A stretch of 64,000 nt of DNA from Oscillospiraceae bacterium (GTDB taxonomy: Bacteria; Bacillota; Clostridia; Oscillospirales; Ruminococcaceae), in assembly GCA_017466865.1 (NCBI GenBank), contig JAFTTI010000021.1:62001-126000 (forward strand), written 5' to 3'. Position 1 is the stretch's first letter, and every line of letters starts with the position of its first letter. This document shows positions 20,142 through 48,299 of the stretch, one piece after another. A program made the translations under genes and the position numbers. The notes under the pieces were generated by a model. It searched no databases, had not been told where the DNA came from, and saw only the letters and a list, made by a program, of their open reading frames with translations.

Positions 20142-20999
20142 ATGAAAAAAGCACTTACACTTGTCCTCGCACTTGCAATCACATTAGGGGTAACCGGTTG
20201 CACAAAGAAAACAGGAAATCCTACAAACGAAACCTCACAGACAACTGTTTCGGAAGAAAAGATTGAATTCGATGTAAAGGCTGCCTATGAAGCCAACAAG
20301 ATTTCAAACCTTTTAAAAACAGCTGAATCTGTAAAGGAAATCTATGAGTATGACGATGAAATTTCCTATACGGAATATTTCCTTGACAACGAGGGGAATA
20401 TCGGTTTTGTAAGCTATATGGATGACCATAATGTAACAACAGGAAACTACAAGGGTATGGTTTTTGATTACAGTCCCGATGAAAATTTCCTGCATCTTTC
20501 ATCTTATATCATCGATAAGGAAGAAAACGGATTCGGAGATTTCAGTATCGCTTATTTCCTCGATGAATACAAGGTTATAAACGTTACAGCCGATGAGGAT
20601 TCAATAAACGTTGAAATGAAAATTTCAGAAATCTTTGAATGTGAACCTGTCTTTGTTGAATTTGAAAAAGATACTTTAAGACTCCTCTCTTTCGATGACG
20701 GCGTTGTTTCGAAATATGAATACGGCGAATTCGGGAATAAGGATCTTATACAGAATGTTCTCGAAGGCGAAAAGATAACAGTTAATTTCAATGTAGAAAC
20801 CTATGCCACAGACGGAAGCGTCAGCACTACGGCATACATGATTGACATCCCCAAGGGAAGCGTTTTCTGTCCGTATGAAACCTATGAAGGATATTTTGCT
20901 TATTACGATGCTGAATATACAAAGTCAGCAAGACTCGATTACTACGCAGCTCCTTTCACAGACGGAATGACAATCTATCTTACAAACGCAGCAGGTTAG
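20142..20999 (+). CDS. Lipoprotein of unknown function
   Basis: 285 aa. A textbook lipobox (GVTGC, Cys20) follows a short positively charged signal peptide, so the mature protein is anchored outside the membrane after a Thr/Ser/Lys linker. The remainder is an acidic, beta-rich domain of about 240 residues with many Tyr and Asp; I recognise no family. A GGGGAAAG ribosome binding site precedes the ATG. The TAG stop codon runs straight into the first copy of a small hairpin repeat (20999-21021). Confidence 0.7.
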   Translation: MKKALTLVLALAITLGVTGCTKKTGNPTNETSQTTVSEEKIEFDVKAAYEANKISNLLKTAESVKEIYEYDDEISYTEYFLDNEGNIGFVSYMDDHNVTTGNYKGMVFDYSPDENFLHLSSYIIDKEENGFGDFSIAYFLDEYKVINVTADEDSINVEMKISEIFECEPVFVEFEKDTLRLLSFDDGVVSKYEYGEFGNKDLIQNVLEGEKITVNFNVETYATDGSVSTTAYMIDIPKGSVFCPYETYEGYFAYYDAEYTKSARLDYYAAPFTDGMTIYLTNAAG

Positions 21000-21023
21000 T
21001 GGCGAGCCGCCACGGGCAAATCG
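20999..21023 (+). repeat. GAGCC-loop hairpin repeat, copy 1
   Basis: Stem GTGGC (20999-21003), loop GAGCC, stem GCCAC, then GGGCAAAT. The first stem base is the last base of the upstream stop codon. See findings for the family. Confidence 0.7.
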
Positions 21024-21090
21024 TTACGAACTTTGTTCTGAAAATTAAATACAGGCTCGGTGACGACAAAATTAATTATCTGACCAGACA

Positions 21091-21115
21091 TCACAGAGCC
21101 ACCACGGGCAAATTG
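21091..21115 (+). repeat. GAGCC-loop hairpin repeat, copy 2 (degenerate stem)
   Basis: GAGCC (21096-21100) followed by ACCAC and GGGCAAAT, identical to copy 1 in loop and tail, but the 5' arm TCACA no longer pairs. A reversed GGCTC at 21054-21058 pairs with this copy across a 9-of-10 inverted repeat (21054-21063 with 21091-21100). Confidence 0.6.
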
Positions 21116-21161
21116 AATTGGTAGCAAAAACATCATAAATTTAAAATGGGGGAAATTTGTT

Positions 21162-21752
21162 ATGGAAAATGAAATCTTGGTAAAAGTCTGTTCCAAGTGT
21201 GGAATTTTCAACAGCGAAAGAGCAGAAAAATGTGAATCATGCGGAACAAAACTCGATGAGGCCATAGGCAAGAAAGAAGCCGAAGACTTAAGCGAAGAAA
21301 TCGAAAAGAGAAACAAAAAAATCAGCGCCGATATTGCAGAAGCAAAGACCAGCGGACCTGCGAAAAAAGAAATAGACCTTCCCGTTTCGCCTTTCAGAAA
21401 AGTTCTCGGAATAATTATGGCTGTTGTAACAGTTGTTATGACATTAGGAGCAATTGTACTGATATTCTGTCCTAATCCTTTCGAGGGCAAGAATATGGCT
21501 TACGGAGAGATTATTATCGGCGGATTTCTTCTTGCTTTCATTATGGCGTATCTTACTGCATTCTGTCTTTTCCCCGGAAAAGTATGGTCTGCTCAGCTTT
21601 ATTTTTCAAGTTATCGTTATAGTCAGGTTCCTATTCCTTCCGATTACGCTCTTAATATGCAGTGCGTTGCATTCATATTCTTTACTCTTATGGCGATAGG
21701 ATTTATCGTCCTTGAAGTCTGGATAATGTTTAAAGCCTTTACGGGAGTATAA
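21162..21752 (+). CDS. Zinc-ribbon membrane protein
   Basis: 196 aa. Two CxxC pairs (Cys10/13 and Cys24/27) form an N-terminal zinc ribbon, followed by a charged coil (about 30-75) and three or four hydrophobic segments (about 85-110, 118-140, 165-192). This layout is common among clostridial membrane proteins without known function. GGGGGAAA precedes the ATG by about ten bases. It follows a repeat-rich leader (21000-21160) that carries two copies of the hairpin repeat. Confidence 0.65.
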   Translation: MENEILVKVCSKCGIFNSERAEKCESCGTKLDEAIGKKEAEDLSEEIEKRNKKISADIAEAKTSGPAKKEIDLPVSPFRKVLGIIMAVVTVVMTLGAIVLIFCPNPFEGKNMAYGEIIIGGFLLAFIMAYLTAFCLFPGKVWSAQLYFSSYRYSQVPIPSDYALNMQCVAFIFFTLMAIGFIVLEVWIMFKAFTGV

Positions 21753-21784
21753 ATTTAAAAGTTCAATAAAAAAGACAGCAAGGA

Positions 21785-21809
21785 AAAAGGAGCCCTTTTG
21801 GGCAATCCG
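21785..21809 (+). repeat. GAGCC-loop hairpin repeat, copy 3
   Basis: Stem AAAAG, loop GAGCC (21790-21794), stem CTTTT, then GGGCAAT. The stem bases differ from copies 1 and 4 but still pair. Confidence 0.55.
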
Positions 21810-21821
21810 TAATAAAAAATC

Positions 21822-21852
21822 AAGGGTATCGAGTTTATCGCTCGGTACCCTT
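21822..21852. terminator. Terminator hairpin inside the 21770-21895 element
   Basis: AAGGGTATCGAG / CTCGGTACCCTT, 12 bp with one G-U, 7-base loop; on the minus strand it is followed by a run of T, fitting termination of azlCD. Confidence 0.75.
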
Positions 21853-21901
21853 AATTATTTCTATACGGTCATTTCCCTGATACCTGCTGTCTTTTATTTT
21901 T

Positions 21902-22207
21902 TCAGATAAACAGACTTAAAATATATGCCGCGGCACAAGCCCCCAGAGCGACAGTTACCATCGACTGATTGAAGAACGCAAGAACAACCGCAACCACAAG
22001 TCCTAAAGATGCCGAAAAAATATCGCCCGTTGAATAGAATATAGCGGGGAATGTCATCGCACCGAGTACCGCATATGGAGTGTAGTGAAGAATACTTTTT
22101 ACAAACTTTGATTTTATCTTCTTTCTGAATAATACCATAGGCATCATTCTGATGATGTAGGTTACTCCTGCCATAACGATTATGTATAAAAATATATCTC
22201 TAAGCAT
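21902..22207 (-). CDS. azlD: AzlD-family branched-chain amino acid export subunit
   Basis: 101 aa, small hydrophobic AzlD partner with four membrane segments and the conserved TYIIRMMPMVLF (about 13-24). With AzlC it exports branched-chain amino acids or analogues. The start at 22207 is chosen because AGGAGGAAGAAAACG lies just upstream and the ATG overlaps the azlC stop (ATGCTTAG), a classical coupling arrangement. Confidence 0.88.
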   Translation of the reverse strand: MLRDIFLYIIVMAGVTYIIRMMPMVLFRKKIKSKFVKSILHYTPYAVLGAMTFPAIFYSTGDIFSASLGLVVAVVLAFFNQSMVTVALGACAAAYILSLFI

Positions 22208-22943
22208 CGTTTTCTTCCTCCTTTTCGTCTTCATGCGGGAATAAAGCTGCCGCTAAAACAGATGTTATAACAGCGCATATAATTATTGAAAATCCACTTG
22301 ATATTCCTGAGAAAAAGGGAACATAATAAAGCAGGCAACTGAGTATTGCCGAAATGATTACAACAAATGCAATACTTTTTTCTTTTCTTGCCGGCGGAAT
22401 TATTATCGCTATGAACATTCCGTATATCGCAATGCCCAAAGCCGCCTTTATTTTAAGCGGCAGGATTTCTCCTGCCGAGGCACCGAGAAGAGTTCCCAAA
22501 GTCCACCCTACAAACGGGAGGAGGATAAGACCATACATAAATCTTTTTCCGATTTCGCCTTTTTGCGAACAGGCAACCGCGAATATTTCATCCGTTATTC
22601 CGAAAGATGTTATAAAGCGATGCGGTATTGTAAACGATTTGTCAAGCTTCTGAGAAACAGAAATCGACATGAGAAAATATCTTAAATTTATTACAAGTTG
22701 AGTGAGTGCCATTTCGCCTAATGGACCCATAGCCGCAATAATTCCCAGCGCCGCAACCTGACCCGCAGAGGTTAAATTCGTCATCGAAATTATAACCGAT
22801 GATAAAACAGAAAGTCCACCATTCACAGCTGATATTCCGAAACCGAATGAAACCGCAAGGTAACCTAGCGCTATAGGAATACCGCATTTAAGACCATATA
22901 AAAATGACTTGGGATTTTCTTTCAGAGCAATTTTTTCTGACAT
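22200..22943 (-). CDS. azlC: AzlC-family branched-chain amino acid permease
   Basis: 247 aa with seven or eight helices and the AzlC landmarks GIPIALGYLAVSFGFG (about 20-35) and the LTSAGQVAALG stretch (about 56-66), then LRYFLMSISVSQK. Large subunit of the AzlCD exporter of branched-chain amino acids. Translationally coupled to azlD. Promoter at 22985-23013. GAGGAAG precedes the ATG. Confidence 0.9.
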   Translation of the reverse strand: MSEKIALKENPKSFLYGLKCGIPIALGYLAVSFGFGISAVNGGLSVLSSVIISMTNLTSAGQVAALGIIAAMGPLGEMALTQLVINLRYFLMSISVSQKLDKSFTIPHRFITSFGITDEIFAVACSQKGEIGKRFMYGLILLPFVGWTLGTLLGASAGEILPLKIKAALGIAIYGMFIAIIIPPARKEKSIAFVVIISAILSCLLYYVPFFSGISSGFSIIICAVITSVLAAALFPHEDEKEEENDA

Positions 22944-22984
22944 TTTTTCATTACTTCCTCATAAAAATGATTTTTTACCGACTG

Positions 22985-23013
22985 ATTATACCACATCCGC
23001 CAAAAAAATGCAA
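22985..23013 (-). promoter_or_regulatory. Promoter of azlCD
   Basis: Minus strand TTGCAT, 17 bases, TATAAT with TGG before the -10 (extended). Confidence 0.72.
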
Positions 23014-23455
23014 ATTCAAACGATATGGTATAATCGTTTGACCGTTTTCTTGACAAAGCAACTTTTTTGAAAAATCCCAGAATTTCGGGAAAAACTCGGA
23101 TTTTTTAAAAATTTACTGTCCATAAATATTCTCCGAACTGCCGTTTTTTGACTACTTACAGAAATATACAATTCTGTAACACCCTGACAAGTAAACTCAC
23201 GAAGAAAGATGATTTTCCAAAAATTCGACAAGAAGAAAAATAGAAAACGATGTTTCACTTTGAAAAACCGAAGTCAACTCATTTACAGAAAATCCCAGAA
23301 ACACCCTTGAAACGCTGTTTCATAAAATTCACACTAAAATGTTTAAAACCCTTAAAATCGGAATATTTTTTGTTACCCGACAAAAATCGTTCCAACGGAT
23401 AAAAAAGAGCCCTCCTGAAACCGCCTCTTTTGGTCATCCTGACATAGTTTTTTTA
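23014..23455. other. Gene-free AT-rich region with several inverted repeats
   Basis: The 582-base gap between azlC and the hydrolase holds no convincing gene. Visible are: CAAACGAT-8-ATCGTTTG around an extended -10 (23017-23040), TTACAGAA-8-TTCTGTAA (23156-23179), and AAAAGAG / CTCTTTT (about 23403-23431), which on the minus strand looks like a terminator. These could belong to a short untranslated RNA, but nothing proves transcription. Confidence 0.4.
23017..23040 (+). promoter_or_regulatory. Inverted repeat covering an extended -10 box
   Basis: Perfect 8-bp arms CAAACGAT and ATCGTTTG flank ATGGTATA; TGG-TATAAT (23026-23034) lies inside, so a bound dimeric regulator would cover the -10 of a plus-strand promoter without a clear -35. 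Confidence 0.45.
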
Positions 23456-23484
23456 TTGCACACATTACTAAAATGTGGTATACT
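23456..23484 (+). promoter_or_regulatory. Promoter of the hydrolase-to-TrkA operon
   Basis: TTGCAC, 17 bases, TATACT with TGG before the -10. Confidence 0.68.
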
Positions 23485-23525
23485 ATTAAATGTATAACCA
23501 AAATCTGAAAATGGAGTAGATTATA

Positions 23526-24299
23526 TTGATTACCGAAATAAACGGTCTTAAAATAAATTACGAAATGAAAGGCGAGGGCGAAACGGTTGTCCTGCTTCAC
23601 GGCTGGGGTGCGAACATTACTCTTTTCGCTGACCTTATATCTCTCGTCTCACAGAAATACAGAGTAATCGCGGTTGATATGCCGGGTTTCGGAAAGAGTG
23701 AAGAACCTGATGATAACTGGCAGGTAAGCGACTACTCACAGTTTGTCATTGATTTTCTTTCTTCGCTTGATGTTAAGAAAGCAACCTTTTTAGGTCATTC
23801 GTTCGGCGGAAGAGTTATAATAAAACTTGCTACCTGTTTTTCGCTTCCCTTTGAAATCGACAAGATTATCCTTGTTGACAGCGCAGGGATTCTTCCTAAG
23901 AAAACACCAAAGCAGATAAGAAAACAGAAACGCTATAAGTTTATGAAGAAAGTTCTTCTTTCGCCACCTATAAAAACACTTTTCCCGAATGCTCTCAAAA
24001 AGCTTCAGGATAAATCAGGCTCGGCGGATTATAAGGCGGCGTCACCCGTTATGAGAAAAATTCTCGTTTCTGTTGTCAATGAAGACCTTGAACCGCTTCT
24101 TCCCAAAATAAAACAGTCAACCCTTTTAATCTGGGGTGAGAACGATACAGCAACTCCTCTTTCAGACGGAAAGAGAATGGAAGAACTTATCCCCGATGCA
24201 GGACTTGTCACAATAAAGGGCGCGGGGCATTATTCTTTCCTTGAGGGAAAATTCATCTTCAACCGTGTTATATGTTCATTCTTGAAAATAGGAGATTAA
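23526..24299 (+). CDS. Alpha/beta hydrolase
   Basis: 257-residue hydrolase with a full triad: nucleophile Ser92 in GHSFGG, Asp in LIWGENDTATP (about 200-210) and His in GAGHYSF (about 232-238); the oxyanion HGWGAN is at about 26-31. The initiator is TTG, supported by GGAG nine bases upstream and no alternative ATG nearby. The substrate is unknown. It is the first gene of a run with a Mur ligase (nine bases downstream) and Ddl, which hints at a cell-envelope substrate, but the link is positional only. Confidence 0.85.
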   Translation: MITEINGLKINYEMKGEGETVVLLHGWGANITLFADLISLVSQKYRVIAVDMPGFGKSEEPDDNWQVSDYSQFVIDFLSSLDVKKATFLGHSFGGRVIIKLATCFSLPFEIDKIILVDSAGILPKKTPKQIRKQKRYKFMKKVLLSPPIKTLFPNALKKLQDKSGSADYKAASPVMRKILVSVVNEDLEPLLPKIKQSTLLIWGENDTATPLSDGKRMEELIPDAGLVTIKGAGHYSFLEGKFIFNRVICSFLKIGD

Positions 24300-24308
24300 G
24301 TTTTTATC

Positions 24309-25898
24309 ATGACCGAAATTATAATGTTCATAGCAGTAACACTTTTTGTTACTGTCGCAAGATATATGGGCGGCTTCCGCGAACTTCATATGTTACAGCA
24401 GAATTCATATCAGTTCAAAAGTCATTTTAACAGAGCAAAACAGAATCATTATGTAAGCTATCTTCCTTATGTGATATTTCTTTGTGTTCCGGGGCTTATG
24501 TTAAGTCCGCTTTTTGAAATGAATGTTTTAGGGATTATTATAAAATCACTTCTCATAGTAGCATCTGTTGTAACTATGATTATAAACAGACCCAAGAAAT
24601 TCAAAAAGCCATTTGTCTATACAGCAAGAGTAAAGCGAATGATAGTAACCTTTACAATCCTTACAATCATTCCACTCATAGTTGCAGTTTTCGGGTTTTT
24701 AAATGAAAGTTTTGTTACAGCCTATGTAACACTCGCTTTCATTCTCTGCCTTACTCCATTAGCGTCACTTTTATCAAATCTCATAAATTACCCTATTGAA
24801 GAATACATCAGAAGATGGTATATAAATGACGCGAAGAAAATCCTTTCGGGAATGAAGTCGCTCGATATTGTCGGCATAACAGGAAGCTACGGCAAAACGA
24901 GTATGAAGTTTTACTTAGGCGAACTTTTGAATTCACAGTATAACACACTTATTACTCCCGAAAGCTATAACACCCCTATGGGCGTTGTAAAAACTATCCG
25001 TATGATGATGAAATCAACCCACGAAATCTTCGTCTGCGAAATGGGTGCTCGTCATGTAGGCGATATAAAGGAACTCTGCGATATAGTTCATCCTCACGAC
25101 GCTATAATAACATCGATAGGGCCTCAGCATCTCGAAACATTCGGAAAGATAGAAAATATCATCTCAACAAAATTCGAACTCGGCGATGCTGTAAACGGCA
25201 AGGGAAAAATCCTTGTCAGTGGCGATGATGAAAATATCCGAAAGGGTATGGGTAAATACGAAAATGTAATCACCTATGGTTTTTCTGATAATAACGATTA
25301 TAAGGCGAAAGATATTTCTGTTTCTTATAAGGGGACTAAATTCACAGTCGTTTCAAAATCGGGTGAAGAATGTGAATATGAAACATCTCTTCTCGGTGAA
25401 CATAATGTTTTAAACCTTTTGGGTGCGATTTCTTATTGTAACGAAAAGGGAATTTCACTTTCATCACTCATTATCCCCGTAAGAAGAATAAAATCCGTTA
25501 AGCACAGACTCGAACTCATAGACGGCGGAGAGATATGCTATATCGATGACGCATATAATTCGAATCCTCAGGGAAGTAAAGCAGCTCTCAAGGTTTTATC
25601 TCTCTTTGATGACTATATGAAAATTCTCTGCACACCGGGTATGGTCGAACTCGGCGAAAAGCAGGATGAACTGAATTTTGAATTCGGAAAAGAAGCGGCG
25701 TCAGCCTGCGACTATGTAGCGCTTGTCGGTAAAAAACAAACAGAGCCTATTTTAAAAGGCCTTAAAGAAAATGGCTTTTCAGAGGAGAAAATTTTTGTTG
25801 CCGAAACCTTGTCAGAGGCAATTGAAAATATAAAGAGTATAATATCGGATAAAAAGAAAATGGTTCTTTTAGAGAACGATTTGCCCGATAACTATTGA
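24309..25898 (+). CDS. Membrane-anchored Mur ligase (MurF-like)
   Basis: 529 aa. Residues 1-170 carry about four to five membrane helices instead of the usual MurF substrate domain. A Mur-ligase ATPase domain follows, with P-loop GITGSYGKTS (189-198), the EMGARHVGDIKELC segment (about 245-258) and IGPQHLETFG, and a C-terminal ligase domain with YIDDAYNSNP and PGMVELGEKQ. MurF adds D-Ala-D-Ala to the peptidoglycan precursor; the adjacent ddl supports a role in that step. Whether this membrane form is the sole MurF or acts on another substrate is open. Confidence 0.82.
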   Translation: MTEIIMFIAVTLFVTVARYMGGFRELHMLQQNSYQFKSHFNRAKQNHYVSYLPYVIFLCVPGLMLSPLFEMNVLGIIIKSLLIVASVVTMIINRPKKFKKPFVYTARVKRMIVTFTILTIIPLIVAVFGFLNESFVTAYVTLAFILCLTPLASLLSNLINYPIEEYIRRWYINDAKKILSGMKSLDIVGITGSYGKTSMKFYLGELLNSQYNTLITPESYNTPMGVVKTIRMMMKSTHEIFVCEMGARHVGDIKELCDIVHPHDAIITSIGPQHLETFGKIENIISTKFELGDAVNGKGKILVSGDDENIRKGMGKYENVITYGFSDNNDYKAKDISVSYKGTKFTVVSKSGEECEYETSLLGEHNVLNLLGAISYCNEKGISLSSLIIPVRRIKSVKHRLELIDGGEICYIDDAYNSNPQGSKAALKVLSLFDDYMKILCTPGMVELGEKQDELNFEFGKEAASACDYVALVGKKQTEPILKGLKENGFSEEKIFVAETLSEAIENIKSIISDKKKMVLLENDLPDNY

Positions 25899-25921
25899 TT
25901 ATTTTATCAGAGGTGGAAAAA

Positions 25922-27103: not shown

Positions 27104-27119
27104 TTAAAAGAGTGATTTT

Positions 27120-28457: not shown

Positions 28458-28473
28458 AAAAGGAGTATTTTGT

Positions 28474-29121
28474 ATGGTATCCGTACTTATAATAGGCGTC
28501 GGTCAGTATGGCTCGCATATAGCAAAAAGAATGGAAGAACTGGGATGCGAGGTTATGGCTATCGACATAAACGAAGAACGCATAAACGACATTCTTCCTT
28601 TTGTTACAAGCGCACAGATAGGTGACAGTACAGATGATGATTTTCTTAAATCATTAGGTGTCAACAATTATGATGTATGCATAGTTTCTATAGGAGATAA
28701 TTTTCAGAATTCTCTAGAAACAACAGCGCTTTTAAAAGAACTCGGAGCGAAAAAGGTCATAGCGAGAGCGTCAAATGATGTTCAGATGAAATTCCTTCTC
28801 CGTAACGGTGCTGATGAAGTAGCATACCCCGAAAAACAGTCTGCTATGAGAATAGCAACAAAATATGCTTCTGAGAGTATTCTTGATTTTCTCGAACTTG
28901 ATGATAAATATTCGATCTATGAGATGAGAGTTCCATCGGAATGGGATGGCGAAAGTCTTTCCGACCTTGATATAAGAAAGAAATACAATGTCAACATAAT
29001 CGCTGTCAAAAGTGGCGATAAGGTTGAAGTGCCCTTCCATAACACAATTATGAGAAGCGGTGACATTGTCCTCGCGATAGGAGATATAGAAGAAATCCAG
29101 AAATGCTTTAAAGTGAAATAA
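28474..29121 (+). CDS. Potassium uptake regulatory subunit TrkA/KtrA
   Basis: 215 aa: an N-terminal RCK/TrkA-N Rossmann domain (GVGQYGSHIAKRM at about 7-19, with the nucleotide-binding Asp near residue 30) and a TrkA-C domain from about 140. It binds nucleotide at the cytoplasmic face of the KtrB channel and gates it. GGAG site precedes the ATG. Last gene of the run; followed by an unusual long-loop terminator at 29129-29204. Confidence 0.93.
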   Translation: MVSVLIIGVGQYGSHIAKRMEELGCEVMAIDINEERINDILPFVTSAQIGDSTDDDFLKSLGVNNYDVCIVSIGDNFQNSLETTALLKELGAKKVIARASNDVQMKFLLRNGADEVAYPEKQSAMRIATKYASESILDFLELDDKYSIYEMRVPSEWDGESLSDLDIRKKYNVNIIAVKSGDKVEVPFHNTIMRSGDIVLAIGDIEEIQKCFKVK

Positions 29122-29128
29122 AAAAATC

Positions 29129-29210
29129 CCGTGCTTTCTACTTCGTTAAACTCGCTCGGAATACCTGTGTATGCCGTCGCTCGTTTGCCTTGTATAAAGC
29201 ACGGTCTTTT
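29129..29210 (+). terminator. Long-loop terminator after trkA
   Basis: CCGTGCTTT (29129-29137) pairs with AAAGCACGG (29196-29204), then T-rich. The 58-base loop is unusually long and GC-richer than the surroundings, and holds two direct copies of TCGCTCG (29152-29158 and 29177-29183). Confidence 0.6.
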
Positions 29211-29215
29211 TGTTT

Positions 29216-29238
29216 ATCTGCCTCCACGGGCTCCGTGG
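29216..29238 (-). repeat. GAGCC-loop hairpin repeat, copy 5
   Basis: On the minus strand: stem CCACG, loop GAGCC, stem CGTGG, then AGGCAGAT. Lies just beyond the terminator of the minus-strand EamA gene. Confidence 0.55.
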
Positions 29239-29283
29239 TTGAAATACGGGCAATCTTTTTGCTATTATAAGTGATATAAAATA

Positions 29284-29319: not shown

Positions 29320-30252
29320 CTAAGATTTATCCTTGTGGTAGTTTACAACAAAAATCCCCGTGCATACAAGTATTAAAGAAAGAAGACTGTTGATACTCAT
29401 AGCCTCGGCAACTTCTCCTAAGAAAACCGCCGAAAGCAATACTCCGAAAATCTGTTTTGTGAAACCATATACAGATATTTCAGAAACGGGATTGTGCTTT
29501 AAAAGCAGCGACCATAAAGTATAAGCCGCAGCTGAAATAAACGCAAGATAAAGCATAAGAATTACCGATGAAGCACCGCTGAAAGTTATCCGTCCGCCTA
29601 AAGAAAATCCCACTGTCGCAAGAATAATTCCACCTATAAAAAACTGCCATCCGCTGAGCATCATAGGGTTGTCATCTTTTGAAAATTTCTTCATTATAAC
29701 CGATGAAAAAGCCGATGCAACTGTTGAAATAAGAATAAATCCCTCGCCCATGAGTGTGAACGAAAAGTCATATGAAAATCCGTTCATATTGATAATCATA
29801 ATGCCTATGAATCCTATTATACAGCCGACTATTTTCTTAACGGTGAGGTTTTCAAGTTTAAATATAACCGCCGAAAGAATAAGTGTTATAAAAACGCTTG
29901 TTCCTATAATAACAGATGCCTTAACACCCGATGTTCTCGCGAGTCCTATATAATAGAAGAAATACTGTATAACCGTCTGGAAAAGTGAAATTATAAAAAC
30001 TTTGCCGATACTTTTTTTCTTCGGATAAAGAACTTTTTTCGATATAATGGATGTTATTATGATAACCATAATACCAGCCGTTGCAAAGCGTATTCCTGCA
30101 AAAAGAAGTTGTGAACCTATATCGTCAGAGGGAATACCGAATAGATGAAAACCTTTTTTAACAGCAGGAAAAGCGCTTCCCCATAACATACAGCAGAAAA
30201 GGCTCAGAAGGCATACAAAAACGGGTTTTTTGAGAATGTTTTTCTTTTCCAT
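29320..30252 (-). CDS. EamA/DMT-family transporter
   Basis: 310 aa with ten helices in two EamA repeats. The first helix (VCLLSLFCCMLWGSAFPAVKKG) carries the WGSAFP signature. It differs from the EamA protein at 6077-7000 in sequence, so they are separate family members rather than recent copies. Substrate unknown. It has its own terminator and lies downstream of the RR-HK-HtrA operon, which ends in a separate hairpin, so it is probably transcribed alone. Confidence 0.88.
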   Translation of the reverse strand: MEKKNILKKPVFVCLLSLFCCMLWGSAFPAVKKGFHLFGIPSDDIGSQLLFAGIRFATAGIMVIIITSIISKKVLYPKKKSIGKVFIISLFQTVIQYFFYYIGLARTSGVKASVIIGTSVFITLILSAVIFKLENLTVKKIVGCIIGFIGIMIINMNGFSYDFSFTLMGEGFILISTVASAFSSVIMKKFSKDDNPMMLSGWQFFIGGIILATVGFSLGGRITFSGASSVILMLYLAFISAAAYTLWSLLLKHNPVSEISVYGFTKQIFGVLLSAVFLGEVAEAMSINSLLSLILVCTGIFVVNYHKDKS

Positions 30253-36266: not shown

Positions 36267-36267
36267 A

Positions 36268-41603: not shown

Positions 41604-41621
41604 TGTCATTAGTGATAAACT
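41593..41621 (+). promoter_or_regulatory. Promoter of 41660-42766
   Basis: TTGACA, 17 bases, TAAACT; the -35 overlaps the end of the preceding gene. Confidence 0.65.
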
Positions 41622-41659
41622 TTAAGCGTGATATTTATTATCTTTAAGGAGGATAAAAA

Positions 41660-42766
41660 ATGAATCTTAAGAAACTTTTAGCTGCTTTTTCAGCAGGTGT
41701 AGTTGCAGTTTCTGCTATGTCAGCAGTAGCAGTTTCAGCAAAGGCACAGGAAGCACTTGACCTTTCATACAGCACAATGTTTGAGGACGAAATCGTTGAA
41801 GGCGAAGTTCATGTTTCTATGCTTGCTGATAACTGGGTGGATAGAACGATAATTGATTTCCGTAACGGCGGTGAAAACGGCGATGGAAGATTTTTAATCA
41901 AGGGTGTTACAAGAATTTATTTCAGAAGATCAGGTAATATCACTGATGTAGGCGGAAATCTTGACAGATATGTCGAAATGACAAAAAGCGAAGATATGGT
42001 CCGTCTTGTGATGGCACCTCCCGGATCAGATTCAAGTGAAATTGATATGATATTCAAATACAGAGCAATCGATGATGATAAAATCGAAAAAAGTGATATT
42101 GATGTATACGGTGCAAATTTAATAGGAACAAATATTGCAGCAGAATCATCAGGCAAACTCGAAGGATATATCATCAATAAGGTGTGCCGTGATGTTGTTG
42201 AGGTTGACCTTGAAGATGAAGAAGTTGCTTACTGCGATATTGAAAAACTTTACCGTGATGTAAAAGAAGATAGCAAGGCAGATTTTCTTCGCGAAATGAA
42301 TGGTAAGCTTGAAAGATATGAAGATGCTAAGCTTACATTCGTTTTCGACAGAGACAGACAGTTACCCAAAGATTATGAAACAGATGAAGATTATAACTGG
42401 AATACAGCAATGAAGTCTATGACTCTTATCATCAACGGCAAGGAAGTTACAGCAAAGCCTGAAATCAATGTAGGTAAAGAAAAATGCACACTTTCTTTCA
42501 ATTGGGATGATATCAAGGCTCAGAAAGAAATTTTCGAAAAATATACAGCTATGCAGACAATGGTTATCAAGACAGAAAACGACTACCTCGATGCTAAAAT
42601 CACAGACCCCGATGAAGTTATGGACCTTGAACTTATCGAAGTAAAACTCACTGCTCCTGCAAAGACAGAAAACGGTGAAGTCAAGGATGATACTGTTAAG
42701 GAAAATACTCCCGTAGAAGATTTCTCGGCAGGTTCATCAGCAACAGTTTTTGAAACAACACTTTAA
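41660..42766 (+). CDS. Secreted protein of unknown function
   Basis: 368 aa with a clear Sec signal peptide (Lys-Lys head, hydrophobic core, cleavage probably after AKA at about residue 29). The mature protein is acidic and beta-rich; residues 35-180 contain alternating strands and a FRNGGENGDGRFLIKGVTRIYF-like segment suggestive of a carbohydrate-binding-like sandwich, but no family is recognised. The end is Thr/Ser/Glu-rich and lacks a sorting motif, so it is likely released or held loosely at the wall. An AAGGAGG site precedes the ATG. Confidence 0.65.
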   Translation: MNLKKLLAAFSAGVVAVSAMSAVAVSAKAQEALDLSYSTMFEDEIVEGEVHVSMLADNWVDRTIIDFRNGGENGDGRFLIKGVTRIYFRRSGNITDVGGNLDRYVEMTKSEDMVRLVMAPPGSDSSEIDMIFKYRAIDDDKIEKSDIDVYGANLIGTNIAAESSGKLEGYIINKVCRDVVEVDLEDEEVAYCDIEKLYRDVKEDSKADFLREMNGKLERYEDAKLTFVFDRDRQLPKDYETDEDYNWNTAMKSMTLIINGKEVTAKPEINVGKEKCTLSFNWDDIKAQKEIFEKYTAMQTMVIKTENDYLDAKITDPDEVMDLELIEVKLTAPAKTENGEVKDDTVKENTPVEDFSAGSSATVFETTL

Positions 42767-42778
42767 TTGTAAAGACAG

Positions 42779-42810
42779 AATGCCGTTCCTTAAAAAGAAC
42801 GGCATTTTCT
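42779..42810 (+). terminator. Terminator between secreted protein and YkgJ genes
   Basis: AATGCCGTTC / GAACGGCATT, 10-bp stem, 8-base loop, short T-run ending a few bases before the next ribosome binding site. Confidence 0.8.
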
Positions 42811-42821
42811 ATGGAGGAAAT

Positions 42822-43304
42822 ATGCTTAAAGAAATACTCTCAAAAGAAACCTGCGCTAATTGCAGATTATGTTGCACATTCGATAAATACGATATATGGG
42901 AAACCCCCGTTGTAACAACTTCTCTCAAAGAAAAAATAAATAAAGAATATCCCGATGTAAAGTTTATCGAAAAGGGAGAAAGCTATCTTTTCAGAATGGA
43001 AAATCCTGATGAAAACGGAATATATTATTGTCCCGTTCTTACTGATAAAGGCTGTGCTTTAGGTGATGAAAAACCTTTCGACTGTAAAATATGGCCCTAT
43101 CGAATTATGAATTTTGAAGGAGTAAGAGTTATAACACTTTCACCCGTATGCGAAAGTGTTTTCTCTCTTCCGATAAAAACTATAAGAGAAACCGCAGAAA
43201 AACTTTCATCTGCGATTTTCTCTTATGCCGACGAAAATCCTGATATTGTAAAACCTTATGACGATAGTTATCCTATCATCCTTTCAGAAAGAAATAATAA
43301 ATAA
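42822..43304 (+). CDS. YkgJ-family cysteine-cluster protein
   Basis: 160 aa. The N-terminal CANCRLCC motif (CxxCxxCC, about 11-18) with later GC and DCKIWPYR cysteines is the metal-binding pattern of the YkgJ (Zn/Fe-chelating) family, of unknown biochemical role. Start at 42822 behind GGAGG; an upstream in-frame ATG at 42750 lies inside the previous gene and its terminator. Its 3' end overlaps the convergent spoVAC end by 29 bases with no terminator between, so the two transcripts would be antisense over the overlap. Confidence 0.82.
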   Translation: MLKEILSKETCANCRLCCTFDKYDIWETPVVTTSLKEKINKEYPDVKFIEKGESYLFRMENPDENGIYYCPVLTDKGCALGDEKPFDCKIWPYRIMNFEGVRVITLSPVCESVFSLPIKTIRETAEKLSSAIFSYADENPDIVKPYDDSYPIILSERNNK

Positions 43305-43719
43305 TTCCATAAATAGATGATGACAATATCCCATAGAGGATAACAGGCCCTGAAATTATAAAAATTTTAGCACCCACACCTAAAATATACCCTTCGGTTT
43401 TAAATTCTAAAGCAGGGGATACAACCGAATTTGCAAATCCCGTTATGGGAACAAGCGTTCCTGCACCTGCGTGTTTTGCGATTTTCTCGTATATTCCAAG
43501 CCCTGTTAGTAAAGCACTTATAACAATAAGCGTTATCGAAACAAAGGCGGATGCTTCGTTTTTTGTAAGCCCCATATAAAGATAAAGGTTTGATAAAAAT
43601 TCCCCGAAAGTGCATATTGCACCGCCTATTAAAAATGCCTTTAAACAGTCTTTCAAAGACTTTGATTTCGGTGATGCTTTTTCGGTCATTTCTTTATATT
43701 CTCTTTTTGAAACAGACAT
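43276..43719 (-). CDS. spoVAC: Stage V sporulation protein AC
   Basis: 147 aa, typical SpoVAC with an N-terminal charged region and four or five membrane helices; GGAICTFGEFLSN, ALLTGLGIYEKIAK-HAGAGT and PITGFANSVVSPALEFK are family marks. SpoVAC forms part of the forespore channel that imports dipicolinate and releases it at germination. Here it is alone: spoVAD and spoVAE do not follow. Its Shine-Dalgarno GGAGG lies in the 3' arm of a terminator-like stem (43727-43759), so translation may need special transcription start or unfolding. Expected forespore expression (SigG); no clear SigG promoter seen. Confidence 0.93.
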   Translation of the reverse strand: MSVSKREYKEMTEKASPKSKSLKDCLKAFLIGGAICTFGEFLSNLYLYMGLTKNEASAFVSITLIVISALLTGLGIYEKIAKHAGAGTLVPITGFANSVVSPALEFKTEGYILGVGAKIFIISGPVILYGILSSSIYGIIYYFFLKG

Positions 43720-43726
43720 AAATAAA

Positions 43727-43759
43727 ACTACCTCCGATTTTTCTCAGAGGTAGTTTTTG
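43727..43759 (-). terminator. Terminator-like stem enclosing the spoVAC ribosome binding site
   Basis: Minus strand AAAACTACCTC, 12-base loop, GAGGTAGTTTTATT. It can end the transcript of 43781-44783 and at the same time sequesters GGAGG of spoVAC. Confidence 0.7.
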
Positions 43760-43780
43760 TATTTTTTTATATTTTATACA

Positions 43781-44026
43781 TCAGTATCTTCTTTTGCGTC
43801 TGTTTTGTCTTCTCTCTTCATTTTTTCTTCTTCGTTCTTCAACCTGTTCGTTGAACTCTCTGTTGAACTGTGCACCCGACAAAGTTCCGCCAAGAGCAAT
43901 ACAGAAAACCGAAATAATAAGCATAGCGGGATTGGCATTTCCGAAGAAAACGGCAATCATAATAACAACCGCTGCAAGATATAAAAGCCATATAAGAAAG
44001 TTATAACTTCTGCGTTTTTTCTTCAA
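43781..44026 (-). CDS. Small basic membrane protein of unknown function
   Basis: 81 aa: basic head, two membrane helices (about 10-30 and 35-55) and a strongly charged Arg/Glu C-terminal tail (about 57-81). The TTG at 44026 is chosen as start because AAAGGAG, inside the end of the PP2C gene, lies ten bases upstream. Co-transcribed with the PP2C phosphatase, four bases after its stop. Unrecognised. Confidence 0.6.
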   Translation of the reverse strand: MKKKRRSYNFLIWLLYLAAVVIMIAVFFGNANPAMLIISVFCIALGGTLSGAQFNREFNEQVEERRRKNEERRQNRRKRRY

Positions 44027-44030
44027 TGGA

Positions 44031-44783
44031 TTACTTCTCCTTTCCCGTAACAAGAACGGCTGTCAGATTATCTTTACTGCCGTTTTTCATAGCAAGTGAA
44101 ACAAGTTCCTTAAGTTTTTTTATGTGTGGGATATTTTTCTTTAAAACACCTTTTATCTCATCGTCAGAAAGGTAATCAGAAAGCCCGTCGGTTGAGATAA
44201 GTATCATATCATCGGGATTTACTATGCCTATTTTTTCAATCTGCGGTTCAGGTTCTTGTTCAACATTTCCGAGAGATGAAATGATAACATGTTTCTGCGA
44301 GTGAACCTTTGCCTGTTCGGGGGTTATCTCGCCGAGGTCAACAAGAAGCTGGACAAGTGTCTGGTCTTTTGAAATCTGCATAAGATTTCCGTCCGAAAAT
44401 TTATGCATTTTAGAGTCGCCTATGTTTATAAGCGTTGCCTCACTGTTTTCATCAACAGCAAGTGCACATAAAGTTGTCTGCATATTAAGGCTGTCTTCGT
44501 GGTCCATTCCGTAAGCAAGGATATTTTTATGAACATCGGATATTTTCTTTTTGAGATTTGTTTTCGAGGAGTATTTTATGTTTGAAAGAAGTTGTAAAGA
44601 AAGCTTTGATGCTTTTTCGCCGTTGTTTTCTCCGCCTACACCGTCAGCAACAGCAACGATAAAAGGATTTTCCGCTTTTCCCTCTATCTCAGAGTGAGAA
44701 AGGATAATGCGGTTTATCATAAAAGCATCTTCGTTTCGTTTTCTGGTATTGCCCTTTTCCGAAACACCATAACAATAAAACAT
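44031..44783 (-). CDS. PP2C-family serine/threonine phosphatase
   Basis: 250 aa, the size of bacterial PrpC/Stp phosphatases. Metal-site motifs are intact: RKRNEDA (about 13-19), VADGVGGEN (about 47-55), STDGLSDYL (about 196-204) and GSKDNLTAVLV near the C-terminus. It removes phosphate from Ser/Thr residues. A PrkC-type kinase normally encoded next to it is absent from this window. Start at 44783 follows GGGAG; the longer frame to 44834 is upstream of the ribosome binding site. Promoter at 44823-44851. Confidence 0.92.
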   Translation of the reverse strand: MFYCYGVSEKGNTRKRNEDAFMINRIILSHSEIEGKAENPFIVAVADGVGGENNGEKASKLSLQLLSNIKYSSKTNLKKKISDVHKNILAYGMDHEDSLNMQTTLCALAVDENSEATLINIGDSKMHKFSDGNLMQISKDQTLVQLLVDLGEITPEQAKVHSQKHVIISSLGNVEQEPEPQIEKIGIVNPDDMILISTDGLSDYLSDDEIKGVLKKNIPHIKKLKELVSLAMKNGSKDNLTAVLVTGKEK

Positions 44784-44822
44784 ATTTTTTCTCCCGATAA
44801 ATTTTAAAATATCCACAAAATT

Positions 44823-44851
44823 ATTATATAACATATCGGTTTAAAGTGCAA
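44823..44851 (-). promoter_or_regulatory. Promoter of the PP2C unit
   Basis: Minus strand TTGCAC, 17 bases, TATAAT. Confidence 0.72.
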
Positions 44852-44856
44852 GTCTA

Positions 44857-44885
44857 TTGACAAATTTGGTGCGATGTAATAAACT
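44857..44885 (+). promoter_or_regulatory. Promoter of the amidohydrolase gene
   Basis: TTGACA, 17 bases, TAAACT; -35 lies five bases from that of the opposing promoter. Confidence 0.7.
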
Positions 44886-44925
44886 GAAAAGGTAATATTT
44901 TATATAGAAAAGAGATTTTTAAAAA

Positions 44926-45744
44926 ATGGAAACTTTTACAGCAGAACAATTTGAAATCATCGACGCGCACACCCATATCTACCCCGAAAAAATATCACAG
45001 AAAGCCTCTGATGCAATAGGTGATTTCTATGATATAAAGATGTTTTCAAAGGGTTCTTCGGATGTTCTTATCGAAAACGGAAGCAGAATAGGAGTTAAAA
45101 AATATCTTGTCTGTTCAGCGGCAACAATTCCATCACAGGTTGAAAGTATAAATAATTTTATTATGGAAGAAGCAAAACTCCACAGTGAATTTTTTCCGTT
45201 CGGAACAATGCACGCCGACTACGAAAACATAGGCGATGAGATAGACAGAATGGTTGAAATGGGATTCAAGGGAATAAAACTTCATCCCGATTTTCAGAAA
45301 TTCGACATTGACTGCGAAAACGCTTATAAAATCTATGAAGCCGCAGAGGGAAGACTGCCCGTGCTTTTCCATATGGGTGATGACAGATACGATTTTTCAA
45401 AACCCCACAGACTTAAAAGAGTTCTCTCTGATTTCAAGAATTTAAAGGTTCTTGCCGCACATTTCGGTGGATATCGTTGCTGGGAAGAAGCAAAGGAATG
45501 TATCGGCAGACATCCCAATGTAAGATTTGATACATCAAGTTCTCTCCCTATGATTTCAAGAGAAATGGCTAAAGGGCTTATAGATTATTACGGTGTTGAA
45601 AATATGTTTTTCGGAACAGATTTCCCTATGTGGAGTGCTACTGAAGAACTCGAAAGATTCTTCTCTTTAGGCCTTTCATTTGAGGATAACAGAAAAATCT
45701 TCTCGGAAAACTTCAAGGAATTTTTTGGGATTGAAAAATTGTGA
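44926..45744 (+). CDS. Amidohydrolase-2-type metal-dependent hydrolase
   Basis: 272 aa TIM barrel. Metal ligands DAHTHIYP (about 13-20), GIKLHPDFQKFD (about 110-121), HMGDD, HFGGY and the terminal FGTDFPMW (about 227-234) place it in the amidohydrolase_2 family (COG2159), which includes decarboxylases and hydrolases of aromatic acids. The substrate cannot be inferred. The ribosome binding site is weak (AAAAGAG), and the gene stands alone with its own promoter. Confidence 0.85.
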   Translation: METFTAEQFEIIDAHTHIYPEKISQKASDAIGDFYDIKMFSKGSSDVLIENGSRIGVKKYLVCSAATIPSQVESINNFIMEEAKLHSEFFPFGTMHADYENIGDEIDRMVEMGFKGIKLHPDFQKFDIDCENAYKIYEAAEGRLPVLFHMGDDRYDFSKPHRLKRVLSDFKNLKVLAAHFGGYRCWEEAKECIGRHPNVRFDTSSSLPMISREMAKGLIDYYGVENMFFGTDFPMWSATEELERFFSLGLSFEDNRKIFSENFKEFFGIEKL

Positions 45745-45783
45745 TTCTGTTAAAATTTTTTTCAAAATTTATTAAAAAATATA

Positions 45784-45812
45784 TTGCAAATGCCTTTTAA
45801 ATATGGTATCAT
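45784..45812 (+). promoter_or_regulatory. Promoter of cobU-like/pilT
   Basis: TTGCAA, 17 bases, TATCAT with TGG before the -10. Confidence 0.6.
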
Positions 45813-45865
45813 TAAAATATATGTAACATTATTCTTCATAAACATAACGAAGGGAAGTTATAGCT

Positions 45866-46411
45866 ATGTCAAAAATTCAGTTCATCACAGGAGGAGCGGC
45901 GAGTGGTAAAACCCGTTGGGCTATTACATACTACCAGGCTTGTGACAATGTTCTTTATCTCTGCATAAATAAAGAACTCGACAAGGAAATAGCCGACAGA
46001 ATAGCATTCAACAACAAGAGAAACGGTATCGAATGGGAGATTGTCAAGGATGTTGACGATCCCGCAAAGTATATCGACCGTAATCATAAGTTTACAATCT
46101 TCGATGGCCTTGGTGCTTATGTTTCAAGAGAAATGTATGCGGCTTGTCCCAACCCCGAAGAAATGACAGAAGAACAGAAAAAAGAAATCGAAAAGAACAT
46201 TATTGATAAGCTTATTTCTCTTATCGAAACCGTTAAGGAAATAAACGGCGACCTTCTTATAATAACAATCGAACCCGGTTTCTCTGTTTGCCCCGAAAAG
46301 AGAGAACAGAGACTTTTCAGAGAAATCCTCGGAACAGTTAACCAGCGTATCGCAAATATCTGCACAGACGTTTACCTTTCAGCAAGTGGAATTCAGTTTA
46401 AAATCAAGTAA
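45866..46411 (+). CDS. CobU-like nucleotide-binding protein, guanylylation His missing
   Basis: 181 aa, length and end pattern of CobU (adenosylcobinamide kinase / GTP:adenosylcobinamide-phosphate guanylyltransferase): P-loop GGAASGKT (9-16) and terminal VNQRIANICTDVYLSASGIQFKIK-like stretch, typical of CobU's last strand. In Salmonella CobU the segment after ARI is QHHKDGR with His46 carrying the GMP; here it is AFNNKRN, so both His are lost. The kinase fold is kept, but guanylyl transfer by the known mechanism is unlikely. No other cobalamin gene is nearby; it is 18 bases upstream of pilT. Confidence 0.75.
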   Translation: MSKIQFITGGAASGKTRWAITYYQACDNVLYLCINKELDKEIADRIAFNNKRNGIEWEIVKDVDDPAKYIDRNHKFTIFDGLGAYVSREMYAACPNPEEMTEEQKKEIEKNIIDKLISLIETVKEINGDLLIITIEPGFSVCPEKREQRLFREILGTVNQRIANICTDVYLSASGIQFKIK

Positions 46412-46429
46412 GATAGGGGAGTATTTTGT

Positions 46430-47479
46430 ATGACATTTGAAGAATTTATTATGGCTGCCAGAAATAATGGCGCATCCGATATCCACATGACAGTAGGTGC
46501 TCCCACTGTCTTCAGAATCAACGGTAACCTTGTTCGTCTTAACGATATGGATGATCAGGTTGTAAACAGAACAATCCTTTCAATGCTTACAGCAGAACAG
46601 GAACAGCGCCTCAACGCAGGCGAAGACCTTGACTTCGTTTTCGAAATTTCAACAGGCGCAAGACAGCGTGTTAACGTATTTCACCAGATGGGAAAACTCG
46701 CTGCATCAATCCGTCTTCTCAATGCAGAAGTTCAGTCACTCGATGACCTCGGATTTCCTCATGTTTTAACAGAATTTGCACAGAGAAAGAGTGGACTTAT
46801 CCTCGTTACAGGACCTACAGGTTCAGGTAAGACAACAACTCTTGCGGCTATGATTGACTACATCAACAAAAACCGCGCTTGTCATATCATTACAATCGAA
46901 GACCCCGTTGAATATCGCTACAAGCCCGACCTTGCCCTTATTCATCAGAGAGAAGTTGGCGCCGATGTAAAGACATTCGACCTTGCTCTTCGTTCAGCAC
47001 TCCGTGAAGACCCCGATGTTATCTTCGTCGGCGAAATGAGAGACTTTGAAACAATCCAGCTTGCTGTAACAGCCGCTGAAACAGGACACCTCGTTCTTGC
47101 AACACTTCATACAAAGGGTGCTGCTGAAACAGTCGGAAGAATTATCGACGCTTGTCCTCCTATGATCCGTTCACAGATGCTCGTTCAGATCGCACAGACT
47201 CTCGAAGGCGTAGTTTCACAGGTTCTCATTCCTACAGCAGACGGAAATACACGAGTATGCGGTCTTGAAGTTCTTGTCGGAACAGACGCTGTTAAGAATC
47301 TTATCCGTGCCGATAAGTGTCATAACCTCGAAACAGCTATGCAGCAGGGTGCAAGAAACGGTATGATCATTATGGATGATTACATCTTCAACCTTTATAA
47401 AGAAGGAAAAATCAACCGTCAGGCAGCACTTGAATTCTGCAACGACAGAAGCTTCATGTCAACAAAGCTCGGATATTAA
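46430..47479 (+). CDS. PilT-type twitching/secretion ATPase
   Basis: 349 aa, the standard size of PilT, the hexameric ATPase that retracts type IV pili. Walker A GPTGSGKTT (about 128-136), Asp-box, Walker B DPDVIFVGEMRD (about 198-209), His-box GHLVLATLHT and a C-terminal AVKNLIRADK close to the PilT-specific AIRNLIRE. The N-terminal DIHMTVGAP region is also typical. No other pilus gene lies in the window. The gene appears co-transcribed with the CobU-like gene. Confidence 0.92.
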   Translation: MTFEEFIMAARNNGASDIHMTVGAPTVFRINGNLVRLNDMDDQVVNRTILSMLTAEQEQRLNAGEDLDFVFEISTGARQRVNVFHQMGKLAASIRLLNAEVQSLDDLGFPHVLTEFAQRKSGLILVTGPTGSGKTTTLAAMIDYINKNRACHIITIEDPVEYRYKPDLALIHQREVGADVKTFDLALRSALREDPDVIFVGEMRDFETIQLAVTAAETGHLVLATLHTKGAAETVGRIIDACPPMIRSQMLVQIAQTLEGVVSQVLIPTADGNTRVCGLEVLVGTDAVKNLIRADKCHNLETAMQQGARNGMIIMDDYIFNLYKEGKINRQAALEFCNDRSFMSTKLGY

Positions 47480-47493
47480 TATTATAAAAATCA

Positions 47494-47527
47494 AAACACC
47501 GTTCTCTTATGAACGGTGTTTTTTTGT
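47494..47527 (+). terminator. pilT terminator
   Basis: AAACACCGTTC / GAACGGTGTTT, 6-base loop, T-run. Confidence 0.88.
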
Positions 47528-47555
47528 TGACTATTCTTGTCGGATATGGTAGAAT
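47527..47555 (+). promoter_or_regulatory. Promoter of the FNT gene
   Basis: TTGACT, 17 bases, TAGAAT with TGG before the -10. Confidence 0.7.
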
Positions 47556-47585
47556 TTTAATATAATTTATTTCAAGGGGGATTTT

Positions 47586-48209
47586 ATGAAACGATATTTT
47601 GATATTCTTTTAAGGGCAATAATAACAGGTTTTGCAATAGGCATCGGCGGTGTTGTATGTCTTTCCTGCGAAAGCAGATATATAGGCGCAGCACTTTTCG
47701 GCACAGGTCTTTTTGTTATACTCACATTCGGACTCAGCCTTTTCACAGGAAAAGTTGGCTATGCCGTTGAAAATAAACCCGCATATATTATAGATCTTCT
47801 TATTATATGGGCAGGAAATTTCATAGGAACAGCCGCAACAGGCCTTCTTGTTCTCTGCACAAGAATTTCAGGTATCAGCGAAAAGGCAAAAACAATGTGT
47901 GAAACAAAACTTTCCGATAACCTTCTCAGCATTTTTATTCTTGCGTTTTTCTGCGGAATGTTGATGTTCATAGCAGCAGATGGTTATAAGACAATCAAAA
48001 ACCCTACCGCTCAGGTTTTTGCTATATTCCTTCCCGTTATCGTGTTTATTTTAAGCGGATTTGAACACTGTATTGCAAATATGTTCTATTTCACAGTAGC
48101 AGAAATGTGGTCAGCAAAGGCTTTCGGGTATCTTATCGTTATGTCGCTCGGAAACGCTGTCGGCGGAATGTTTATACCTTTTATAAGAAAGGGATTTATA
48201 AAGGACTAA
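47586..48209 (+). CDS. Short formate/nitrite transporter family channel
   Basis: 207 aa with six membrane helices. The FNT signature GFEHCIANMFYF (about 158-169) including the pore His, and the SLGNAVGGMFIPF end are diagnostic; family members (FocA, NirC, HSC) are usually 260-285 residues. The N- and C-terminal cytoplasmic tails are almost absent, giving a core-only channel. Permeant anion (formate, nitrite, hydrosulfide or acetate) cannot be decided. It is monocistronic. Confidence 0.85.
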   Translation: MKRYFDILLRAIITGFAIGIGGVVCLSCESRYIGAALFGTGLFVILTFGLSLFTGKVGYAVENKPAYIIDLLIIWAGNFIGTAATGLLVLCTRISGISEKAKTMCETKLSDNLLSIFILAFFCGMLMFIAADGYKTIKNPTAQVFAIFLPVIVFILSGFEHCIANMFYFTVAEMWSAKAFGYLIVMSLGNAVGGMFIPFIRKGFIKD

Positions 48210-48217
48210 AAACACAT

Positions 48218-48247
48218 AAAAATCCCCCACATCTGTGGGGGATTTTT
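48218..48247 (+). terminator. FNT gene terminator
   Basis: AAAAATCCCCCACA, TC, TGTGGGGGATTTTT: 14-bp stem. Confidence 0.93.
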
Positions 48248-48271
48248 TTATTTCCATAACAAACTCCGAAA

Positions 48272-48299
48272 CGATATGCCCGCGGAGGCTCTCCGCCTA
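48272..48299 (-). repeat. GAGCC-loop hairpin repeat, copy 4
   Basis: On the minus strand: TAG (stop of the binding-protein gene), stem GCGGA, loop GAGCC, stem TCCGC, then GGGCATAT. Confidence 0.7.

Follow-up and report, generated by a model that had tools for sequence, protein, structure and literature searches.

A probable REP-like family of short hairpins with fixed loop and tail and variable stems in Oscillospiraceae-like bacteria

Repetitive extragenic palindromic elements (REPs) and REPINs are, in the excerpted text of PMC3733652, palindromes of 20 to 40 bp with a conserved unpaired tag (GTAG or CGTC), present in high copy number and mostly downstream of genes. REP units lie near each other in opposite orientation, and the termini of GTAG REPs often give flanking open reading frames (ORFs) their TAG stop codon (PMC3733652, same excerpts); a text search of that paper returned no mention of Firmicutes or Clostridi. 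Here we describe a hairpin family found in a stretch of 64,000 nucleotides (the window) from an Oscillospiraceae bacterium (GCA_017466865.1, contig JAFTTI010000021.1, positions 62,001 to 126,000, part of our contig C39), whose genome (G000) is a draft of 1.8 Mb in 100 contigs, 75% complete. Like the REPs of those excerpts, the unit is a short palindrome with an unpaired tag, has many dispersed copies per genome, and is often downstream of genes; unlike them, it carries no GTAG or CGTC tag but NGGCA, on the 3' side, and its stems differ from copy to copy in a single genome, whereas loop and tail are constant (compared with PMC3733652). We consider it on balance probable that this is a short, non-autonomous, REP-like family acting as DNA and dispersed in one bacterial family.

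Five copies lie in the window, and rereading the sequence found all of them as the first-pass annotation had described them. Copy 1 (20999-21021, plus strand; GTGGC-GAGCC-GCCAC-GGGCAAAT) has an intact hairpin, and its first stem base doubles as the G of the TAG stop codon (20997-20999) of the gene at 20142-20999. Behind it come a body (CGTTACGAACTTTGTT...GGCTCGGTGACG..., 21022-21090, plus strand) of a spacer type that recurs behind other copies, and then copy 2 (21091-21113, plus strand; TCACA-GAGCC-ACCAC-GGGCAAAT), whose stem is broken. Copy 3 (21785-21807, plus strand; AAAAG-GAGCC-CTTTT-GGGCAATC, or AAAAGG-AGC-CCTTTT) lies 32 nt past a stop codon. On the minus strand, copy 4 (29238-29216; CCACG-GAGCC-CGTGG-AGGCAGAT, or CCACGG-AGC-CCGTGG) lies 81 nt past the stop of the gene at 29320-30252 (minus), with an identical hairpin in two further genomes, G002 and G003, and copy 5 (48296-48274; GCGGA-GAGCC-TCCGC-GGGCATAT, or GCGGAG-AGC-CTCCGC) begins immediately past the TAG stop of the gene at 48297-49028 (minus). 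The 5-bp stem and GAGCC loop of the earlier description can be refined, as the outer G and C of the loop pair too: the unit, of about 23 nt, has a 6-bp stem, an AGC triloop, and the tail NGGCA-N-WT. Three of the five copies adopt this structure in folding, while copies 2 and 3 fold differently, and the shared tail (G/A)GGCA(A/T/G)AT applies except to copy 3, whose tail GGGCAATC departs from RGGCANAT.

The family is present well above chance. The exact window-type pattern, GAGCCN5RGGCANAT, matched eight times in the 1.8-Mb window genome and the reversed pattern, used as control, not once; with one mismatch allowed there were 16 matches against 7 in the control, so that the additional matches are mostly noise. 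Among five congeners, two gave 23 and 13 exact matches and the other three none, with all controls at 0. The congeners G002 (RGIG6418, sheep rectum) and G003 (RGIG8503, water deer cecum) are both titled 'Oscillospiraceae bacterium'. Across the family, 86 of 247 genomes contained the exact pattern, but outside G000, G002, and G021 at no more than five matches per genome, close to the control. A covariance model (R1) that scored about 20 candidates per genome, so that counts near 20 are lower bounds, matched 52 of 396 genomes of one GTDB family at E<=0.1. Seventeen of these had a single match, which may be chance, and 35 had at least three, spread over 17 of 126 genera by our own count of the table. 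The highest counts were those of G021, G296, G299, and G337 (at least 21 each); G001 had 16 matches though no exact one, and G004 and G005 had one each. A stricter class-wide survey (E<=0.01), whose sample also took in some genomes of the window's family that were matchless there, gave matches in 4 of 391 genomes: the window's own, two with one match, and G651, of another family, which was the only one of the 390 non-window genomes with at least three matches (it had three). At its loci L269, L271, and L273, G651 carries GCGGGT-AGC-ACCCGC units with NGGCAA tails and a T-A closing pair, including a 21-nt tandem in L273, so the unit also occurs outside the main family.

Public genome contigs held at least 13 stretches with the window-type pattern, 8 from G002 and G003 and 5 from unrelated taxa, the latter being about the chance number by our estimate. 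A phage or plasmid origin was set aside: the same pattern had no match in IMG/VR, two 23-nt stem-specific patterns matched 2 and 1 viral contigs, and a 318-base array from genus g108 matched nothing among phage or plasmid records.

The arms of the hairpin change together. We aligned 40 distinct copies (alignment A1), 33 picked by loop and tail alone and 7 intact-stem ones added by hand, after removal of a chance match (L086). The AGC loop and the tail GGC are invariant across A1, largely because copies were picked by those letters, in keeping with the fixed loop and tail first reported; the loop-closing G..C is replaced by T..A in 2 of the 40 rows. Changes occur on both sides at all six pairs, 92.5% of the 240 cells are paired compared with 36.7 to 52.5% when the register is slid, and 56 cells show double changes compared with 13.2 in shuffles, so the observation that pairing is kept with different bases was upheld as more copies were aligned. 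In a set selected blind to pairing (55 copies, 54 without L086), 44 of 55 had perfect 5-bp arms against 7.1 on average and at most 17 in arm shuffles, a contrast that is not a probability because the copies are related. Together, the pattern controls and the arm shuffles rule out a chance origin.

This covariation had been taken as the mark of selection on a folded nucleic acid. The pairing-blind set comprises 270 arm cells: 250 Watson-Crick, 2 G-T, and 18 other, including 8 A-C or C-A. An RNA selected on this strand is expected to tolerate G-U rather than A-C. The arms thus covary strongly, yet unlike stepwise RNA compensation, and the scarcity of G-T next to A-C or C-A, with the whole-hairpin differences between orthologs set out below, weakens covariation as proof of such selection; the pattern resembles the outcome of DNA-level exchange of whole hairpins or correction of palindromes. 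Of the signs of a structured cis-acting RNA, G-U intermediates were nearly absent and pseudoknot covariation was not seen. The H-type pseudoknot suggested in the first-pass annotation, between loop GCC and tail GGC, finds no support: it breaks in two TAGCA rows of A1, is by our reading unmatched in the TGAC and TGGT hairpins that take the place of the unit, and would have a linker of only 0 to 1 nt across a stem of 5 to 6 bp.

Whole hairpins differ between orthologous sites. When the upstream flanks of hairpin copies were paired among G000, G002, and G003 and rows with non-family hairpins were dropped, five sites had different hairpins and nine the same one, of which one (site F) is shifted by an indel. 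At site A (window 20999), GTGGCG corresponds to GCACGG (GCACG/CGTGC) in G002 and G003, where the hairpin begins one base later; four of five base pairs, 8 of 10 arm positions, and two tail positions differ, while the upstream flank is 98% identical to that of G002 and the downstream body matches it at 38 of 40 positions. At site B (window 48296), GCGGAG-AGC is matched in the same place in G003 by GTGCG-TGAC-CGCAC; site E2 has TGAC versus the AGC loop class; site G has GCGGGG-AGC in G000 and GTGCG-TGAC in G002; and the dnaA end has GCACGG-AGC in G003 and GCGGGG-AAC in G000, with neither in G002. The count leaves out copy 3 (AAAAGG versus AAAGGG in G003), the second tandem hairpin behind the pair G002 C45/G003 C152 (imperfect in both), a TAGCA copy decayed in G003, and a misaligned array pair (G002 C11/G003 C257). 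TGAC and TGGT sister hairpins, with tails RGGACATAT and AGAACATAT, replace the AGC class at some orthologous sites and are found in L027 near 1592, L088, L155 near 453, and L029 near 1442.

Some stems are hybrids. The left arm of window copy 2 is like the CACG type and its right arm like the GCCAC type, and its G002 ortholog reads TCACA/GCCAC (L004, L044); GCGGG/CGCAC and GCGGA/CCCGC also occur. Such hybrids with one arm of each kind (window copy 2, L041, and G003 C152) fit an intermediate of exchange or insertion.

Covariation could instead be purely mutational, through quasi-palindrome correction by template switching, with neither mobility nor selection needed for the stems. The excerpts of PMC8794818 describe template switching for the stems of RNA genes, with multi-base simultaneous changes that keep pairing, and the arms here show no G-T bias. 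This leaves unaccounted for the sites where loop class and both arms change together with flanks kept (B, E2, and G), the stems that recur across genera (GCGGG in g1, g17, and g122), and the insertions. As a complete account we therefore hold it to be very unlikely; by itself it already falls short, and it enters our preferred explanation as a likely second step.

Filled and empty sites can be compared directly. Copy 3 belongs to an insert of about 101 bp (21783-21883, plus strand, by comparison with G002, ends uncertain by a few nucleotides) that occupies the loop of a terminator-like hairpin; G002 lacks it, and there the hairpin is intact, reading without interruption GACAGCAAG-CATTTTT-CTTGCTGTC, whereas G003 also has an insert. 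A terminator-like hairpin within the insert (21822-21852, plus strand) is one found against 1.0 expected in shuffles. At the 3' end of mnmE in one genus, 2 of 16 readable orthologs carry the unit, G096 (TA|GCGCGG) and G240 (TGA|GCGGGG). G096 has about 100 bp without counterpart in its nearest relative G290 (90% identical over 300 aa), in which TAA is followed by a native hairpin whose right half resumes past the G096 insert. The G096 insert appears, as we read the alignment, to begin after TA, with the first hairpin G making a new TAG stop. Erosion of a spacer is not needed to explain abutment to the stop codon at mnmE, where the empty site is almost spacerless. A palindrome around TGTTCCACGTGGAACA, presumably parS-like, lies at or beside the mnmE stop in two other species of genus g92 (L241, L242). 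For groEL in genus g108, 28 of 30 loci have a readable 3' end (the other two are N-terminal fragments), and an intact unit is present in 1 of the 28, in G337; a 99%-identical relative begins with the remnant-like GCGCGGA, and a third genome has a different hairpin there. The unit is thus dispensable at both gene ends. No target-site duplication was recognized at the mnmE and copy 3 insertions.

The location at 3' ends of genes, also part of the first description, holds for the wider family, with a peak at the stop codon itself. Among 148 unique copies, from loci mostly chosen for containing the unit and hence not a random genome sample, 92 had a same-strand ORF of at least 80 codons ending no more than 200 nt upstream and 56 had none. 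Twenty-six of the 92, some mutually orthologous, start at -2 to +1 from the nearest stop (9 at -1 and 13 at 0), and the remaining 66 are spread from 4 to 191 nt. For comparison, other GC-rich hairpins with 6-bp stems and 3-nt loops at the same loci were at the stop in 10 of 260 cases, and the TGAC/TGGT class in 2 of 8. Of 51 predicted tRNAs, four have a copy within 60 nt downstream, and in all four the copy lies at distance 0 from CCA, although two of these are the same tRNA in sister species; a fifth (L129) looks alike by eye, but its tRNA was not called. The bordering genes look full-length and, judged by their ends, presumably include groEL, mnmE, dnaA, argS, and trpS. In 137 of 152 unique copies, a purine stands immediately before the hairpin. 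Copies in L076 (G021) may fall within an ORF.

This placement raises the possibility that the unit is a 3'-end RNA element whose hairpin blocks exonucleases, tunes termination, or marks processing, with the compensatory changes reflecting selection on the RNA fold. The excess at stop codons, the four tRNA-adjacent copies at distance 0, the terminator-like hairpin behind several copies, and orthologs that keep position with a different hairpin all speak for it, and the unit may have an RNA role at the 3' end. The near absence of G-T pairs, wholesale differences that extend to the loop class, the rarity of the unit at groEL and mnmE ends, and the many copies dispersed away from stops or without a nearby ORF end speak against it, as does the window, where no Rfam family matched at the gathering threshold and no known RNA family was thereby recognized. 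Nor is the unit an intrinsic terminator: NGGCA-N-WT stands behind the stem, and any T run belongs to a second, downstream hairpin. Overall, we regard an RNA element as unlikely. Behind copy 5, a bidirectional terminator-like hairpin (48218-48247, minus strand) is one of two found against 0.3 expected. A second repeat family, a large terminator-like hairpin (AAAAAGAC..TGCTTTAT..AGGCAAACGAGCGA..GTATTCCGAGCGAGTTTAACGAAGT..; 29119-29214), adjoins copy 4; this type recurs at several loci of G000, G002, and G003, and several hairpin units sit right behind its AACGAGCGA.

A further reading is a hairpin-exchange system, in which a candidate activity would insert a hairpin of 20 to 23 nt precisely at gene ends (after base two or three of the stop codon, or after tRNA CCA) and later swap it for one of another stem or loop class, giving interchangeable tags; we consider this doubtful. 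The exact landing at gene ends may come from how targets are chosen, from selection for a role as RNA, or from the two together, and we know of no mechanism that would place the unit to the exact base at stop codons and tRNA ends.

The unit often heads an element of about 95 to 105 bp. The tail is often followed by CGTTWCG... and, behind that, a terminator-like palindrome in the window's clade, and by different, partly palindromic sequences in other genera; three more hairpin classes, with TAGCA, TGAC, and TGGT loops, precede the same body. Direct tandems are spaced about 91 to 96 bp (some pairs 111 to 159 bp), 104 and 32 bp (G337), 27 bp (G381), and 21 bp (G651). Four loci (L029, L038, L041, and L073) have two inward-facing hairpins per element, other copies being single or in direct tandem. 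TCGTTTT stands on both sides of the L029 and L038 arrays and CGCG around some copies of other genera. Repeats resembling degenerate 3' parts of tRNA-Ser host a two-hairpin element at site D in L161 (G002 C20) and L164 (G003 C281). Other repeats in the window are a 105-bp tandem repeat in three copies (52440-52754) inside the ORF at 51672-52877 and a 49-bp pair spaced 87 bp (51303-51438).

The inward-facing pairs, and a conserved unpaired tail placed beside the stem like the GTAG tag of REPs, would suit a REPIN or miniature inverted-repeat transposable element moved by a transposase that is lost or missing from the assemblies, for example a Y1 enzyme guided by a TGCC-type sequence rather than by GTAG. 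At the 5' foot of 152 unique copies, GTAG occurs in 2 and CGTC in none; the other foot has NGGC in all 152 by way of selection. The Y1 (IS200/IS605-type) transposase family PF01797, the test for a RAYT, was searched for in 27 distinct genomes, drafts that can miss a gene, and was found in one of six genus members and 4 of 22 carriers (3 over the cutoff). It had no match in the genomes with most R1 matches (G021, G296, G299, and G337), nor in copy-rich G296, G337, G306, G379, and G126 (93 to 99% complete) or in G002 (98%), and no autonomous hairpin-flanked element was seen, genes near the copies not having been scanned. A transposase-driven REPIN of this kind is therefore, in our judgment, improbable. 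The family behaves as REPs do but fails on two of their defining features, the tag and the RAYT.

Our results demonstrate high copy number, presence or absence between close relatives, tandem units, whole-hairpin differences at orthologous sites, and insertion at two kinds of place, within the hairpin of a terminator and right at a stop codon. They lend support to the earlier guess of a mobile REP- or REPIN-like hairpin. In the REP-like account that we prefer, the unit would be recognized as single-stranded DNA through loop and tail, by replication or by a candidate enzyme, and two processes would follow. In the first, a hairpin unit would be exchanged or inserted, sometimes at the foot or in the loop of an existing hairpin; in the second, arms would be corrected by template switching, one arm being copied onto the other. 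Changes in the arms probably come from template switching or ectopic exchange, and we propose that they are free to change because the former copies arms and the latter imports the hairpin of another copy. The unit would be tolerated at gene ends, where it may in addition affect the ends of transcripts.

Several points weigh against this account. The genomes compared are mostly, if not all, drafts, no target-site duplication emerged consistently overall, and no mobilizing enzyme was found in the Y1 search (IS110, serine and tyrosine recombinases, and attC were not searched). Clear hybrid stems number only three, though exchange predicts them, and a neutral selfish repeat does not account for copies that border stop codons and tRNA ends to the base.

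Covarying arms usually count as proof that an RNA folds functionally, and this family looks like a counterexample arising from wholesale DNA replacement, which makes it a warning for RNA-motif searches and a system in which template switching can be tested. Oscillospiraceae-like bacteria thereby gain a REP-like family that mostly lacks a RAYT-type enzyme. No earlier description of it was found within the limited literature collection searched, and it looks like an undescribed relative of the REPs.

The very small mobile repeats (SDRs) of cyanobacteria (Elhai, 2008) are reportedly hairpin-forming mobile units of 21 to 27 nt without a known transposase, in these respects like our unit, with other sequences and hosts. 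Yeast mitochondrial GC clusters and the sponge RHE are likewise, in the excerpted texts of PMC4478555 and PMC2800124, short palindromic elements, mostly intergenic, merging or in tandem, and of unclear mechanism, and GC clusters are also present or absent at homologous positions (PMC4478555). In those elements the stems are conserved and the loops vary (same excerpts), whereas here loop and tail are conserved and the stems vary; GC clusters also have AG or ACT flanking repeats (PMC4478555), unlike our family. The template-switch hairpins in the excerpts of PMC8794818 belong to RNA genes, whereas in our family orthologous repeat sites differ in the very class of hairpin that they hold.

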